From a virus, in the IMG/VR virus record IMGVR_UViG_3300007345_000406, positions 1-20,126 of that record: a stretch of DNA of 20,126 bases. One strand, written 5' to 3'. This document shows positions 9,983 through 15,193 of the stretch, one piece after another (positions within the stretch are counted from its first letter, which is position 1; every line of letters begins with the position of its first letter). The notes under the pieces were generated by a model. That model made no database searches, was not told the DNA's origin, and worked only from the letters and a program-made list of their open reading frames with translations. The position numbers were made by a program, and so were the translations under genes.

Positions 9983-10011
9983 AGTAGACACTATCCGAAC
10001 ACGTCGTTCAA
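9983..10011 (-). promoter_or_regulatory. Candidate sigma-70-type promoter for the small-gene block
   Basis: On the minus strand TTGAAC (10006-10011) and TCTACT (9983-9988) are separated by 17 bp, each matching consensus at 4 of 6 positions. The -35 is inside the end of the primase-finger gene, and the predicted start is about 35 nt before the next ATG. A small hairpin (CCGGG/CCCGG, 9958-9972) lies in the leader. Similarity is modest, so this is tentative. Confidence 0.3.
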
Positions 10012-10428
10012 CATTTTTCTAACATTATTTTCACCCCCCTGACTCCACTCCTCCGCCAGCCCCATCCGATGCCTCGCCAGCTTCAGCCGCTTGTAGTCGG
10101 AATAGCTCAGGCGCTGACCCTTCTTCTGCATCTGCTCGGCCCCTGCGATGACGTACCGGTCCAGCTCCAGCTCCTCCTTGATCCGCTTGGGCATCTCCCC
10201 CGTCCGCTCCAGCGGCTTCTCAAACAGGACCGAAATGGGGAGCCCTAGGGCCTCCACCACTTCCTTCCCGTTAGCGTTACAGGCGAAACAGTGAATCAGG
10301 ACCCGGCCGTCCTTCTCCGTCAGGCTCATGGATGGATTCTTGTCCCCATGCACCGGGCAGCACGCCGTATATCGGTCCTTACCAGTCCGCCGGACCTTCT
10401 CCAGCTTGTCCAAAATCTGTTCTAGCAC
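9991..10428 (-). CDS. Stand-alone primase-type CHC2 zinc-finger protein
   Basis: I prefer the GTG at 10428 (reading MLEQILDKLEKVRRTGKDRY) because GGGAGG lies 6 nt upstream; an ATG at 10449 adds 7 residues but lacks a good ribosome site. About 145 residues. The zinc motif is C24-P-V-H27 and C47-F-A-C50 (CCPVHGDKNPSM, then VLIHCFACNA), matching DnaG-type CHC2 zinc ribbons that read the template for primer start. No TOPRIM catalytic domain follows; instead there is a charged helical tail with MGLAEEWSQGG. It likely partners a separate primase or helicase, and it lies two genes after the SF2 helicase. Confidence 0.87.
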   Translation of the reverse strand: MLEQILDKLEKVRRTGKDRYTACCPVHGDKNPSMSLTEKDGRVLIHCFACNANGKEVVEALGLPISVLFEKPLERTGEMPKRIKEELELDRYVIAGAEQMQKKGQRLSYSDYKRLKLARHRMGLAEEWSQGGENNVRKMLNDVFG

Positions 10429-10487
10429 CACCAGCCTCCCTATCTGCATCTTCCCAGCCTGCGAGCCAGGCCATACGTTTACCGATC

Positions 10488-11078
10488 TCAGCCATTCCGA
10501 AGGGACAGGATTCTCTCCGTTTGTTCATCCCTCTGGCGATACGCCCCATTTTCAATGGCTTTGCGTACTTCTGCACTCCGTAATTCCTCAAGCGATTTCC
10601 CCCTCATTGCTGCGTGATTCTGCACCGCGTCTTTCCAGGCCGTCCGGATCTTCCGCGCTGCGCTGTTTATGCTCCTTTGGGTATATAGCGACCCCTTAAC
10701 CGCCTCTAATGCGTCGATCACGATTGACGCCTCGTTGATGGTGAACCGGAGCGTGCCCCTCTGTGTAACCGGCTTCCGCCTGAAATTCCCTTCCACGTCC
10801 GCCAGCCGATCCACAATGAACCGCCGCTGGCTCTCCTCCTTCATGGCCTCCAGCTCCTGCCTCAGAGCCCTATTGTGGGCCTGGAGGGTTTGAACCTTCC
10901 TCTCCAGGGTCAGGACCCCGCGCTCCTGCATCGTGCGCTTCATGGCCCTTAGCTGCTGCTGTAGGGCTTGATTCCGCTCCTTGGACCTAGCCAGCTTCTC
11001 TTCTAGCCGCCGCCATAGAGGCAGCCGCTTTTTGGCCAGCCCTTGAGCCCGAAAGGCGCTTGCCATTGCGTCGCTCAT
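10488..11078 (-). CDS. Coiled-coil protein of unknown function, overlapping the helicase end
   Basis: Encodes 196 residues. A strongly basic coiled coil spans about residues 20-85 (RRLEEKLARSKERNQALQQQ and similar heptads), followed by a helical domain with VTQRGTLRFTINEASIVIDA and YTQRSINSAARKIRTAWKDA. The start at 11078 has GGAGG 7 nt upstream, so a 92 nt overlap with the helicase 3' end is probably real and both frames are used. No family recognised. Basic coiled coil plus position between helicase and primase finger suggests DNA binding or a replisome adaptor role (inference). Confidence 0.74.
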   Translation of the reverse strand: MSDAMASAFRAQGLAKKRLPLWRRLEEKLARSKERNQALQQQLRAMKRTMQERGVLTLERKVQTLQAHNRALRQELEAMKEESQRRFIVDRLADVEGNFRRKPVTQRGTLRFTINEASIVIDALEAVKGSLYTQRSINSAARKIRTAWKDAVQNHAAMRGKSLEELRSAEVRKAIENGAYRQRDEQTERILSLRNG

Positions 11079-12531
11079 TTCCCATCCTCCACTTGATCGC
11101 CTGGTGCTTGATGAACCCTTCCACGTCCCGGGACAGCTCGACCACGTTATGGTTCTGCTGGATCCTGTTAGGCCAGACGCCGAACTTCTCCCGATACTTG
11201 TGCTTGGCCCAGCCGTCGGAATAGCCCCTGCTCGATCCGTACACCAGCAGCTCGGAGAACCAGCGCTCCTTCTCCTGGACCGGCGTCTCCCGGTTGGTCT
11301 TGCGTAGGGCCTTCAGCTCCGACCCGTCCGTCTCCAGGACCTCGCGAATCGGGATCTCATATCCGCATTTACAACGTATCCCCACCATTTTCCGGTGGCA
11401 CTGGGGGCAATCCCTGGGCTCCTTCTCCTTCCGCTCCTCGGTCTGCTTGCGCTCGGAGAACGCCTTCTCGCCGTCGTCCAGGCTGTCTGGGACGATGCAC
11501 TCCGCGAACCCATGCCGGGCCACATTTCCGGCGTGGTCCAGGTAGACGGCGTTTTCCTTGCCCTCTGCCGTCCGCATGATCCGGCCAGCTCGTTGGACAA
11601 ACGCGATCAGGGACTTAGTGGGGAAGCAGTCGATGAGGCAGGACACGCCCGGGGCGTCGTAGCCGGTGTTCAGCAGCCGGGAGCAGGAGAGGATCTGGAA
11701 CTCCCCCTCGTCGTGCGCTTGATAGAGGATCTGGCGCTCCTCGTCGTCCATATAGCCGTCGATATGGGCCGCCGGGATACCTGCCGCGTTGAACGTGTCC
11801 ACCAGGGTCTTGCTGTGCTTGATCGACGGGGTGAACGCGATGGTCTGCCGTCCCTTCCCGTACTTGAGCCAATTCTCCACGATGGCCCCCACCAGGGAGC
11901 CGTCATCCTCGATAGCGGTCGCCATCTGTTTCGGGTCGTAGTCCGTGCCTCCGGTCGTCAGCCCTCTGAGACCGATCTGGGACACGTCCACCTCCTGGCC
12001 CCCGTAGTAGTCCACGGGGCAGAGATAGCCCTGGTCCAGGAGCTGCTCGGGGGTGATAGGAACCACCAGGTCGTCGTAGGCGACGCCTAGGCCCTTGCTG
12101 TAGGGCGTAGCAGATAGCCCGATGAAGGGGACGGCCGTATACCGGTCCATGAGGGCCTGGAGGCTCTTGTAGTGCGTATGGCACTCGTCCACCACCGCCA
12201 GGTCGAAGTCTGGGCTCTTCCGTCTTGCCAGCGTCTGCATGGAGGCGATCTGGATAGGTGCGCCAGGGTTGCTGCGCTCATGGGCGCCCTGCATAACCCC
12301 TACCCGGAGCCCTTCCCGGTCGAAGGCTTCCAGAGCCTGCTGCACCAGCTTCACTCGGTCGCAGATGAAGATCCCGCGCTTACCCTTCTTGGCTGCCTCG
12401 GCCAGGATATAGGCTGCGGTGATGGTCTTTCCGAATGAACAGGGCGCCGCCAGGATGGGGCGCTTGTTCCCGTGCCGTAGGCTGTGCCGAAGCATCTCCA
12501 CGGCCCGGACTTGATGCGGTCTCAGTTGCAT
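10987..12531 (-). CDS. SF2 DEAD/DECH-box helicase with C-terminal zinc ribbon
   Basis: Encodes 514 residues. Q-motif-like LRPHQVRAVEML starts the protein. Walker A is APCSFGKT at 29-36, motif II is DECH at 115-118, motif III SAT at 140-142, motif V around SRLLNTGYDAPGVS at 284-297 and motif VI QRAGRIMR at 313-320, so both RecA-like domains are complete. A CxxC...CxC cluster (C375, C378, C387, C389) is a zinc ribbon. The C-terminal segment with SRGYSDGWAKHKYREKFGVW (about 433-452) is a small domain I know from phage helicases of this type. It probably unwinds origin or recombination intermediates. The last 30 residues overlap the next gene in another frame. A 503 nt repeat-rich leader lies upstream. 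Confidence 0.93.
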   Translation of the reverse strand: MQLRPHQVRAVEMLRHSLRHGNKRPILAAPCSFGKTITAAYILAEAAKKGKRGIFICDRVKLVQQALEAFDREGLRVGVMQGAHERSNPGAPIQIASMQTLARRKSPDFDLAVVDECHTHYKSLQALMDRYTAVPFIGLSATPYSKGLGVAYDDLVVPITPEQLLDQGYLCPVDYYGGQEVDVSQIGLRGLTTGGTDYDPKQMATAIEDDGSLVGAIVENWLKYGKGRQTIAFTPSIKHSKTLVDTFNAAGIPAAHIDGYMDDEERQILYQAHDEGEFQILSCSRLLNTGYDAPGVSCLIDCFPTKSLIAFVQRAGRIMRTAEGKENAVYLDHAGNVARHGFAECIVPDSLDDGEKAFSERKQTEERKEKEPRDCPQCHRKMVGIRCKCGYEIPIREVLETDGSELKALRKTNRETPVQEKERWFSELLVYGSSRGYSDGWAKHKYREKFGVWPNRIQQNHNVVELSRDVEGFIKHQAIKWRMGNERRNGKRLSGSRAGQKAAASMAAARREAG

Positions 12532-12614
12532 AGGTCAGTCTCCTCTGTCCCCCATCATGCCACCACGGCCCTGGGGGTCTAATTGGTTCTGTCTATCGCT
12601 CCGGTTTCTCCAGG

Positions 12615-12781
12615 CATAGGTTGTCTAATGAGGGCTGTTGGTGCCCCCTGACTCTCACTCCGTCAAATTGCCCAGTCACTAGCGGTAATCGGCAACGATT
12701 TGACCCCGGCTCGCAACACCGTCCCCCATCCTCAGATGGCACCTTTACGCCGTTTGTCCCGCCCTCATAGGTTGCTAGTGA
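12615..12781. repeat. Imperfect direct repeat, CATAGGTTG-CTA-TGA, two copies
   Basis: CATAGGTTG occurs exactly at 12615-12623 and 12766-12774; the match continues as TCTAATGA in the first copy and CTAGTGA in the second, giving about 16 bases with one indel and one substitution. The copies are 151 bp apart. On the minus strand both read as a TCAyTAG...CAACCTATG unit, and the helicase start region also contains ACCTATG. They could be iterons or operator half sites. Confidence 0.5.
12662..12704. repeat. Bulged 11 bp inverted repeat
   Basis: GTCAAAT (12662-12668) pairs with ATTTGAC (12698-12704), and the adjoining TGCC (12669-12672) pairs with GGCA (12691-12694), leaving a 3 nt bulge ACG on one side and an 18 nt loop. 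Either strand could form it. There is no U tract on either side, so it is not a plain terminator. Confidence 0.6.
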
Positions 12782-12827
12782 AATCCCGCTTTACCGGTGG
12801 CCGCACGGTGCGACGGCGCTGCTTACG

Positions 12828-12839
12828 GGGACCGGTCCC
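12828..12839. repeat. Perfect 12 bp palindrome GGGACCGGTCCC
   Basis: The 12 bases are fully self-complementary with no spacer, a pattern of a dimer-binding site rather than an RNA hairpin. A second ACCGGT core occurs at 12793-12798, 38 bp away, and CGCACGGTGCG (an 11-base palindrome around one G) lies between them. Confidence 0.6.
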
Positions 12840-12841
12840 GC

Positions 12842-12871
12842 CACGTTCCCGCATGGGAATTAGGGAACGTG
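12842..12871. repeat. 9 bp hairpin with a competing inner pairing
   Basis: CACGTTCCC (12842-12850) pairs perfectly with GGGAACGTG (12863-12871) around a 12 nt loop. The TTCCC part of the left arm can also pair with GGGAA at 12855-12859 across GCAT, so two mutually exclusive stems share one arm. Confidence 0.6.
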
Positions 12872-12886
12872 AAAGCTTGTTTTCTT

Positions 12887-12934
12887 GGGGAGAGTTAGTG
12901 ACAATCGGAGAGCGCGTGGTGCCTGGCTCTCCCC
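12887..12934. repeat. 8 bp inverted repeat with a competing 7 bp stem
   Basis: GGGGAGAG (12887-12894) pairs with CTCTCCCC (12927-12934). The same right arm can instead pair with GGAGAGC at 12907-12913 (partner GCTCTCC, 12926-12932, 12 nt loop). This repeats the shared-arm design of the neighbouring hairpin. Confidence 0.55.
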
Positions 12935-13034
12935 TCTCCTCATCCTCAGGTTGGGCTTCGCGGACTAACCACCCGACACGCGCCTTCACCCGAACCCCAA
13001 ATATGCCGAAGCATCCACTCCGCCGCAAGGCTTC

Positions 13035-13439
13035 TCAGTTGTAGGAGATGAAATACGGCTCCCCGGATGCCTCATACGCCTGGAATTGTGCCCTGTAGTG
13101 GGCAGATACCTCCTTCCTTAGGTCCTTAGTCGCCCTCAGGAGCCCGTTGCGCTTCTCTAGCAGGAGATCAAGGTGTCCCTGCCCCAGGTGATCCTCTAGC
13201 CACCTGGTGAACTCTACGGGGTGCTCCGTGAAGTACCGGTGGTGGTACGCGCAGAGGGAGACCGCGTTATCCATGGACCAGCGGGTCGAATTGTTCCTGC
13301 GTCCGTAGATATGGGCGCAATGGAGCCCCTGATCGGGCCCAGGGAACCCCTTCCCGCAATGCTCGCACGTCCAGTTTGCCCTAGCCCTTACACATAGACT
13401 AAACCAGTGATCCGCCGCGTCCCGTTTAATGGCTGCCAT
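13035..13439 (-). CDS. HNH endonuclease
   Basis: Encodes 134 residues. An N-terminal DHWFSLCVRARANW leads to C25-E-H-C28, then GLHCAHIYGRRNN (H40, H43), N58 in MDNAVSLC and C63 with H66/H67 in CAYHHRYF. This is a zinc-knuckle HNH fold: two CxxC/CxxH zinc clusters around the ββα-metal active site. Free-standing HNH proteins of this shape cut phage or host DNA and can act as homing, packaging-accessory or NinG-like recombination nucleases. It is far from terS/terL, so a packaging role is less favoured. The start overlaps the DUF3310 gene by 14 nt, with GAGAG upstream. The 503 nt gap begins right after its stop. Confidence 0.88.
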   Translation of the reverse strand: MAAIKRDAADHWFSLCVRARANWTCEHCGKGFPGPDQGLHCAHIYGRRNNSTRWSMDNAVSLCAYHHRYFTEHPVEFTRWLEDHLGQGHLDLLLEKRNGLLRATKDLRKEVSAHYRAQFQAYEASGEPYFISYN

Positions 13440-13801: not shown

Positions 13802-14010
13802 CATGCAGCCAGGCGCTTGTAGAGGCTGTTGATGGCTCGATTCAGGTCGGACTCGCTGTAGATGTAGAACACGTCCCCGGCCTGCTTCTCGCCCTCATGC
13901 ACCACGATCCGGAAGGCGTCCGTCCCGTATCCCGGAACGTGAGTACAGTCCACGTCCTGGTAGGCCGTGACACGCCGGAGGGTGCCGTCCATGTTCCCAT
14001 AATTATTCAT
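13801..14010 (-). CDS. Hypothetical 69-residue protein
   Basis: Reads MNNYGNMDGTLRRVTAYQDV, then a strand-rich middle (AFRIVVHEGEKQAGDVFYIY) and a C-terminal helix SESDLNRAINSLYKRLAA. GAGGAGAG precedes the ATG. It overlaps the phosphoesterase end by 8 nt. The beta-strand plus helix layout looks like a complete small domain, but I recognise no family or motif. Confidence 0.7.
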   Translation of the reverse strand: MNNYGNMDGTLRRVTAYQDVDCTHVPGYGTDAFRIVVHEGEKQAGDVFYIYSESDLNRAINSLYKRLAA

Positions 14011-15193
14011 ACTCTCTCCTCAATACGTCGATCCCGCACGTCAGGCGCATCTGTTCGCCGTATTCCTCGTGCATCACAATGCACTTCATGTCTCGCCCTG
14101 AGAGCCACCCGCCGCCCACGCTGTAGGAGTCGCCGGGAGCGAGCGTCCGCACCTGCTCCACGAAGCATGGCCCGGTATACTCCACTCGGTTGTCGTGATG
14201 GTGGTGTCCCCGGAAAAAGGTCCGGTGTTTAGTCTGCCCCCAGTCCTCCGGCCGCTCCGCTGCCATTATGCCAGGCAGATCCCGGTCCTTCGTTTGATGA
14301 CCATGCACCACCCCGATCAAGCACTTCCCGTGCCGTAGGTAGTGGCGAGTCGTGGGCGCGTCATGGATGACCACCCGGGGCTCGTTCTCGTATAGGGTCC
14401 GGAACATGACGTTCAGGAAATGCGCGAAGGTCTCGTCGTGGTTCCCCGGCGCATTTATCACCTCGACCACTTCGTGCTTCTCTCGCATCCGCTCGATGCA
14501 CCGCTTCAGGATCCGGACGCCGACGTCTATCATCTTGGCGGTCCTACTGTCGCGATCAAGGATATGGCCAGATTTCTCGGTGCTTCCGGCCATGTTCGTA
14601 TAGTGAAAAAAATCGCCCAAATTCACAAGGACGCCGCGCTTCGATGGCGGGCTGCGCTCGACTAGATAGTCTACCGCGTTGCACATATCGGCCTCGGCGA
14701 TGGCTAGGTCGAAGTTTTCCCCGACCTCCTCCGCCCAGGCGTACATTCCCACCTGAGGGTCGCCCCAAGGGTAGACAGACAGGAGCTGCCCGTTCACGTC
14801 AGGGGGAGGCGGCATGGTTTTCGTGGGCTTCACGTCTGCGCAGATCGCCTCGACGGCCTGGCGCATGATCTCTAGCTGCGCTTCCTTATCCAGCGCCGTC
14901 TTGACCCACTGAATTTTAGGCTGGCCGTCCTCTCCGTAGAGGGTAGACGTCCCCTTCACCACGAACGGGCCGGTGGTCGGCCTGGTCATGTCGGCGTCCG
15001 GCGCATAGCCCATCTTCGCGGCTCGATAGCGAACCCGGTCTACGGCCTGGCGGATGGTCCCGCTGTTTACCCCTAGGGCCTTGGCTGCCGCGTTCATGGC
15101 GCCGTGTTCGATTGTGGCCTTCAGGTAGGTGCGCTCCTGGTCAGATACGCAATAATCCAGGAGCTTCTCGTCTAGCTTTAACGGTGCGCCCAT
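14003..15193 (-). CDS. HTH-containing calcineurin-like metallophosphoesterase
   Basis: Encodes 396 residues. An N-terminal helix-turn-helix (about 27-50, with HGAMNAAAKALGVNSGTIRQ) could bind DNA. The phosphoesterase domain shows motif I as GDPQVG (D145, Q147 where the family normally has DxH), motif II NLGDFFHYTN (D194), motif III APGNHDE (N251, H252), motif IV VVHGH (H297, H299) and motif V FRGHHHHD (H330-H333). It should bind two metals and cleave phosphodiesters or phosphomonoesters; related phage proteins are often labelled DNA repair exonuclease-like. The His-to-Gln change in motif I could alter metal 1 binding. Strong GGAG-rich ribosome site. Context suggests DNA metabolism. Confidence 0.88.
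   Translation of the reverse strand: MGAPLKLDEKLLDYCVSDQERTYLKATIEHGAMNAAAKALGVNSGTIRQAVDRVRYRAAKMGYAPDADMTRPTTGPFVVKGTSTLYGEDGQPKIQWVKTALDKEAQLEIMRQAVEAICADVKPTKTMPPPPDVNGQLLSVYPWGDPQVGMYAWAEEVGENFDLAIAEADMCNAVDYLVERSPPSKRGVLVNLGDFFHYTNMAGSTEKSGHILDRDSRTAKMIDVGVRILKRCIERMREKHEVVEVINAPGNHDETFAHFLNVMFRTLYENEPRVVIHDAPTTRHYLRHGKCLIGVVHGHQTKDRDLPGIMAAERPEDWGQTKHRTFFRGHHHHDNRVEYTGPCFVEQVRTLAPGDSYSVGGGWLSGRDMKCIVMHEEYGEQMRLTCGIDVLRREYE

Follow-up and report, generated by a model that had tools for sequence, protein, structure and literature searches.

The put RNA of HK022-type phages is a short folded antiterminator RNA in the phage early operon, and ColE1 RNA II is a structured RNA of several hundred nucleotides, transcribed from a promoter of its own beside a replication function. 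The RNA described here resembles put RNA as a folded RNA in a phage early operon, but is several times larger, is pseudoknotted and has a terminator after it in one lineage. With ColE1 RNA II it shares a length of several hundred nucleotides, a predicted promoter of its own and an adjoining replication function, but it comes with no origin evidence and belongs to phages that have helicase and primase genes. Among large phage RNAs, GOLLD is an ornate RNA of phages and prophages of unknown function, over 800 nt long, encoded near tRNA islands and made of one conserved and one less conserved part, and ROOL is rich in pseudoknots, with no protein known to partner it (PMC12286853). Our RNA is likewise large and pseudoknotted, and combines a conserved with a less conserved part as GOLLD does (PMC12286853). 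However, it is smaller than both (about 400 nt), lies beside helicase-primase genes in a replication module rather than near tRNA islands, with no tRNA found in the window, and matches neither of them in Rfam.

The window is the whole stretch of DNA that was analyzed, 20,126 nt of the viral record IMGVR_UViG_3300007345_000406. All of its substantial genes lie on the minus strand, and those around a 503-nt gap at 12532-13034 mostly overlap or abut, as the original prediction had pointed out. Read on that strand, the gap precedes the start of the helicase and follows an HNH gene. A protein encoded in it was ruled out because none of its open reading frames matched a PHROG family, which bears out the claim of half a kilobase with no credible gene. 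The genes needed to place it are the following.

9991-10449, minus strand: CHC2 zinc-finger primase domain protein (Pfam Zn_ribbon_DnaG)
10987-12531, minus strand: DEAD-family DNA helicase, the constant neighbor (Pfam ResIII/Helicase_C; PHROG 16, DNA helicase)
13035-13439, minus strand: HNH or NinG/Rap-like junction endonuclease, upstream of the RNA (PHROG 5034, E 3.4e-19; HNH_2)

A 396-amino-acid protein encoded at 14003-15193 on the minus strand matched PHROG 704, "DNA repair exonuclease" (E 2e-105), and had no Pfam match.

A helicase search of viral contigs yielded 80 loci, and blastn of the gap against them matched a stretch of 200 to 230 nt at 70 to 75% identity in many of them, in some cases with the stretch and the helicase in opposite orientations. 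Compensatory changes were visible in the alignment of these relatives. A conserved-pattern scan gave 116 stretches of viral DNA, many of which match the profile, and a second pattern scan added further members. The covariance model R1, built on a hand-written structure for 17 sequences, recognizes family members at E values of 1e-50 to 1e-11; a second model, R2, represents the 5′ domain. In the window, cmsearch with R1 matched 12611-12792 on the minus strand with 139.4 bits (E 7.5e-37, a value to be read with the fact that the 17 training rows include L001, whose core is the same as the window's). R1 also matched 16 of 18 larger phage records, with exactly one copy in each; the remaining two comprise G011, which carries a type II RNA (see below), and G012, with no recognized RNA. 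An RNA of type I or II/III was found at 58 of the 64 helicase loci that have at least 1.3 kb upstream, and R2 added four helicase loci (L014, L070 and, weakly, L021 and L024). A pattern scan of a genome collection returned two matches, one of which R1 confirmed (L198, a MAG contig), while finding nothing in the other (L199).

This conserved core could not be seen in the single sequence from which the gap had been proposed as a replication origin or structured leader. The palindrome (12828-12839), the stems (12662-12704, 12842-12871, and 12887-12934) and the direct repeat (12615-12631/12766-12781) named in that proposal are all present, but on their own they do not rise above chance. Folding energy was no better than that of dinucleotide shuffles for the gap on both strands (z 0.62 and 0.85), with a z of 0.27 for the core, and a repeat search of the gap found no inverted pairs and, among direct repeats, just two short families; single-sequence folding was therefore set aside as evidence for the RNA, as it gave no signal. 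The 11-bp stem at 12662-12704 is conserved in no relative: only 1 to 4 of its 7 outer pairs are kept outside the window's own lineage, and it competes with pseudoknots supported by covariation. At the palindrome, relatives keep a hairpin of different sequence. The gap in relatives keeps the RNA structure and no reading frame. The elements of the RNA in the window are as follows.

12605-12985, minus strand: probable full extent of the RNA, its 5′ end placed from relatives, which reach about 155 to 200 nt 5′ of the core start
12828-12839, minus strand: P0 hairpin, palindrome GGGACCGGTCCC; relatives have a hairpin with other sequences (GGGACTGCTCCC, GGTACTGCTCACC, and GTAGTGTCGAGCCACTAC; no formal count)
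12800-12817, minus strand: P1 hairpin, with its loop paired to AAAGCGGG at 12785-12792; covariation in relatives, 100% paired
12611-12792, minus strand: conserved core, type I 3′ domain (R1 match; blastn relatives at 70 to 75%)
12774-12782, minus strand: P2 5′ strand, partner 12675-12683; 9 of 9 pairs change on both sides in relatives, 8 of 9 pair in the window
12675-12683, minus strand: P2 3′ strand, partner 12774-12782; covariation in relatives
12761-12766, minus strand: P3 5′ strand, partner 12630-12635; GAGGGC/GCCCTC in the window, and GAGGAC/GTCCTC, GATGGC/GCCATC, and GAGAGC/GCTCTC in relatives
12630-12635, minus strand: P3 3′ strand, partner 12761-12766; covariation in relatives
12749-12752, minus strand: PK1 5′ strand CGGC, partner GCCG at 12690-12693; CAGC/GCTG in other sequences
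12690-12693, minus strand: PK1 3′ strand, partner 12749-12752; double change
12738-12743, minus strand: P4 5′ strand, partner 12640-12645; GGTGCC/GGCACC, with double changes in relatives
12640-12645, minus strand: P4 3′ strand, partner 12738-12743; covariation in relatives
12707-12721, minus strand: P6 hairpin, whose loop 12711-12714 pairs with 12695-12698 (P7 pseudoknot); P6 95.6% and P7 100% paired
12605-12626, minus strand: conserved 3′ tail AGACAACCTATGCCTGGAGAAA; members of types I and II have a similar tail, whether or not a start codon follows

The 3′ domain consists of P2, P3, PK1, P4, P6, and P7. A double pseudoknot arises where P2 and PK1 are interleaved with P3 and P4; P7 is a further pseudoknot, of the loop-to-strand kind. 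In alignment A2, paired in 90.5% of cells, the covariation score of this domain was 0.401, compared to 0.147 for shuffled and 0.06 to 0.12 for slid alignments. The 5′ domain (H1 to H4) with P1 behaved similarly in alignment A4 (0.395 versus 0.151 shuffled and 0.04 to 0.065 slid). The stem and loop pairs of P1 were 100% canonical there, with many double changes: all 5 stem pairs covaried, as did 2 of the 3 loop pairs, the loop partner in the family being AAAGCN'AG. H1/H2 across types scored 0.357, compared to 0.150 for shuffles. Since the structures were drawn from the same alignments, the slid control favors them in percentage paired, and the covariation score is the safer measure; moreover, P2 and P4 are partly out of register from one subfamily to another in the alignments, and this reduces the covariation counts. 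The window itself pairs fully in P3, PK1, P4, P6, and P7 and in 8 of the 9 positions of P2, and it is the window that carries the double change in PK1; P7 changes from ACGA/TCGT to ACTA/TAGT in L190 and L152. G-U cells (91) outnumber A-C cells (19), indicating that the RNA strand is the minus strand of the window. As judged from these comparisons, the gap encodes a folded RNA, and its predicted fold is borne out by compensatory changes in the nested pseudoknots of relatives.

An alternative pairing of the 5′ strand of H1, with a copy that lies closer to it, is seen in alignment A5. In L053 (3088-3171) and other A5 rows (columns 4-7, 36-39, and 77-80), this strand has two mutually exclusive conserved partners, which change together (UA and CG). 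These alternative partners possibly represent a conformational switch.

Conservation in relatives extends about 155 to 200 nt upstream of the core, and where the full length can be defined, the RNA measures 350 to 420 nt from its 5′ end to the core end. The best sigma-70-like site has a −10 element ending 6 to 9 nt before the conserved 5′ end in 38 of 42 scanned members, some of which are near relatives and so not all independent. The promoter spacer is 17 bp in 71%, and the mean score was 9.4, compared to 7.7 for shuffled sequence. The constant distance between promoter and 5′ end is a stronger argument than the mean score. The RNA in relatives is thus predicted to have its own sigma-70 promoter, which would fix its 5′ end. 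The window keeps P1 and the tail, and R2 found no match in its 5′ half, which is too divergent for the model; no promoter was recognizable in the window either. For these two reasons, its 5′ end was taken from relatives.

The 3′ domain occurs in three types. Type II, found at helicase loci without an R1 match, is 370 to 450 nt long and combines the same 5′ domain (GUGUCGG/CCGACAC) with a different 3′ domain; by eye, the loop pairing of its P1-like hairpin varies in a compensatory manner (AUCG/CGAU, AGCG/CGCU, and ACUG/CAGU) and its 3′ tail resembles that of type I. Type III shares only the 5′ domain. A common 5′ domain with H1/H2, a P1 with a loop pseudoknot and a 3′ tail were thus found for the family, with H1/H2 counted across types, P1 and its loop counted in type I, and P1, its loop and the tail compared by eye in type II. 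The RNA type follows the helicase tree, requiring 9 changes compared to 31 for shuffles. Six loci (L046, L049, L051, L055, L060, and L068) within the type II helicase clade have the same 5′ RNA domain and a different 3′ domain, which looks like an exchange of the 3′ domain.

The RNA usually lies before the helicase, either directly or with one to three small genes in between. Its downstream gene varies among the helicase, several nuclease-like genes and other small genes, and in L088, L090, and L095 the downstream genes differ from this helicase and by eye resemble phage replication proteins. At L026, L130, L033, and L038, different small genes stand between RNA and helicase, some of them nuclease-like by eye. 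In most same-strand members, a start codon follows the tail at a distance of 5 to 40 nt, with no terminator found after the RNA. One lineage has the RNA inverted, i.e., divergent from the helicase; in its members L008, L015, and L176 the RNA ends at an intrinsic terminator, and a sequence resembling a promoter lies ahead of the gene that follows. The inverted arrangement forms one clade, a single event on the helicase tree. An inverted RNA with a terminator at its end suggests that the RNA can stand alone, and we prefer a standalone RNA to a pure leader on this account, with the caution that it concerns a single lineage.

Rfam 15, at the curated gathering score, gave no family match for the window and the loci with type I or II members, the only hit being a tRNA in L003; permissive Rfam scans of three members gave chance-level matches or none. 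An identity with GOLLD, ROOL, HEARO, a group I intron, or RNase P was rejected on this basis, and a group I intron, a ribozyme, and a CRISPR-type guide RNA were also considered with no support from Rfam. By blastn, no named phage matched the type I, type II, or window queries, and no plasmid matched the type II query. R1 and R2 gave no significant match in the isolates PS-1, YA3, HS1, and Vibrio 1.233, nor did R2 in Fels-1, KPP5665-2, Fostie, and PSTCR3. The RNA therefore matches no described family, although its function may prove to be of a known kind. A published catalogue by Fremin and colleagues reportedly holds thousands of candidate phage structured RNAs, and it is possible that this RNA is already listed there as an uncharacterized motif.

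We consider it reasonably probable that the gap holds a dedicated gene for a structured RNA, present in single copy and inherited with the helicase-primase module, that acts in trans in the replication phase. The gene would specify a highly structured phage RNA on the minus strand, about 350 to 420 nt long where its length can be defined; the RNA would be made early, and the folded molecule would act in trans during replication, where it might, for instance, partner replication or host factors, assist them as a cofactor, or divert them as a decoy. Transcription of the RNA would in most phages continue into the replication genes, so that the same RNA would also form their 5′ leader. The predicted promoter in relatives, the varied downstream genes, the divergent lineage, and the terminators point to an RNA gene and not merely a helicase leader. 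The structured leader of the original prediction thus stands as a folded RNA on the helicase strand with compensatory changes, but not as a mere leader of the helicase. Against the trans-acting reading are the start codon 5 to 40 nt downstream and the lack of a terminator in most same-strand members, the inversion being a single event on the tree, and the window's own lack of a recognizable promoter together with its divergent 5′ half. The first two features would also suit a cis-acting leader of the replication operon, controlling the downstream genes at translation or termination, or modifying RNA polymerase like the put antiterminators. Such a leader would fit the usual position of the RNA upstream of and on the same strand as helicase and primase with its own promoter, and the mutually exclusive 5′-strand pairings could be its switch. 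We nevertheless regard it as unlikely, if clearly the foremost competitor, as the downstream gene varies, put RNAs are several times smaller, and in one lineage the RNA and the helicase diverge. In that lineage the next gene has a promoter-like sequence in front of it, and three members have a terminator directly after the RNA, which would speak against antitermination in particular. For most members a helicase leader is conceivable, though it does not hold as the general rule.

A quite improbable reading is an RNA-dependent origin, in which the transcript would fold as a pre-primer of the ColE1 RNA II type and prime or open an origin by the helicase-primase genes. Replication genes adjoin almost invariably in either orientation, an adjacency so strong that an origin or primer role is still a candidate, and the dedicated promoter, the large pseudoknotted transcript, and the A-rich conserved 3′ tail would all suit it. 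However, the replication origin that had been proposed for the gap found no support in cumulative GC skew, which does not turn at the RNA in six of the seven large records; in the seventh, G015, the turn at the RNA coincides with a flip in gene direction. Iteron-like repeats were looked for in the gap and not found, and some members have a terminator right at the RNA end. That the gap is an ordinary spacer or the remnant of a coding gene with chance hairpins would agree with its shuffle-level fold energies and repeats, but is scarcely credible given the conservation with compensatory change across many contigs and the lack of a PHROG family for its open reading frames; the covariation controls refute it. 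We favor a trans-acting RNA of the replication phase, a preference drawn from comparative sequence data. That this large folded RNA is an obligatory component of the replication machinery, i.e., a helicase-primase cofactor or an origin-building RNA, co-inherited with the helicase and with an exchangeable 3′ domain, is a more speculative and doubtful proposal.

The cultured temperate phages Fels-1 of Salmonella, PS-1 of Pseudomonas, and YA3 have gaps of 240 to 610 nt between cro and a related helicase, raising the question of whether RNAs generally occupy this slot. The PS-1 (L245, 2382-2994) and YA3 (L246, 2260-2730) gaps, of 610 and 470 nt, have a common motif, CATCGGCCAGTGATGGTTAAAGCG, with 91% identity over 53 nt and no R1 or R2 match. 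In enteric phages (L249, 1765-2005, of Fels-1, also L250 and L251), the cro-helicase interval contains a conserved G-rich stretch that is not in Rfam and is apparently noncoding, though open reading frames are annotated over parts of it. It has a possible long-range pairing, GTACTAG/CTAGTAC, and is perhaps another structured RNA in the same slot.

It is rare for a large structured RNA of several architectural types and no described family to accompany a widespread phage replication module near-invariably, and such RNAs can be missed completely by single-sequence folding and Rfam. Our findings suggest that in these phages an RNA, and not proteins alone, is put to use when the replication program starts.
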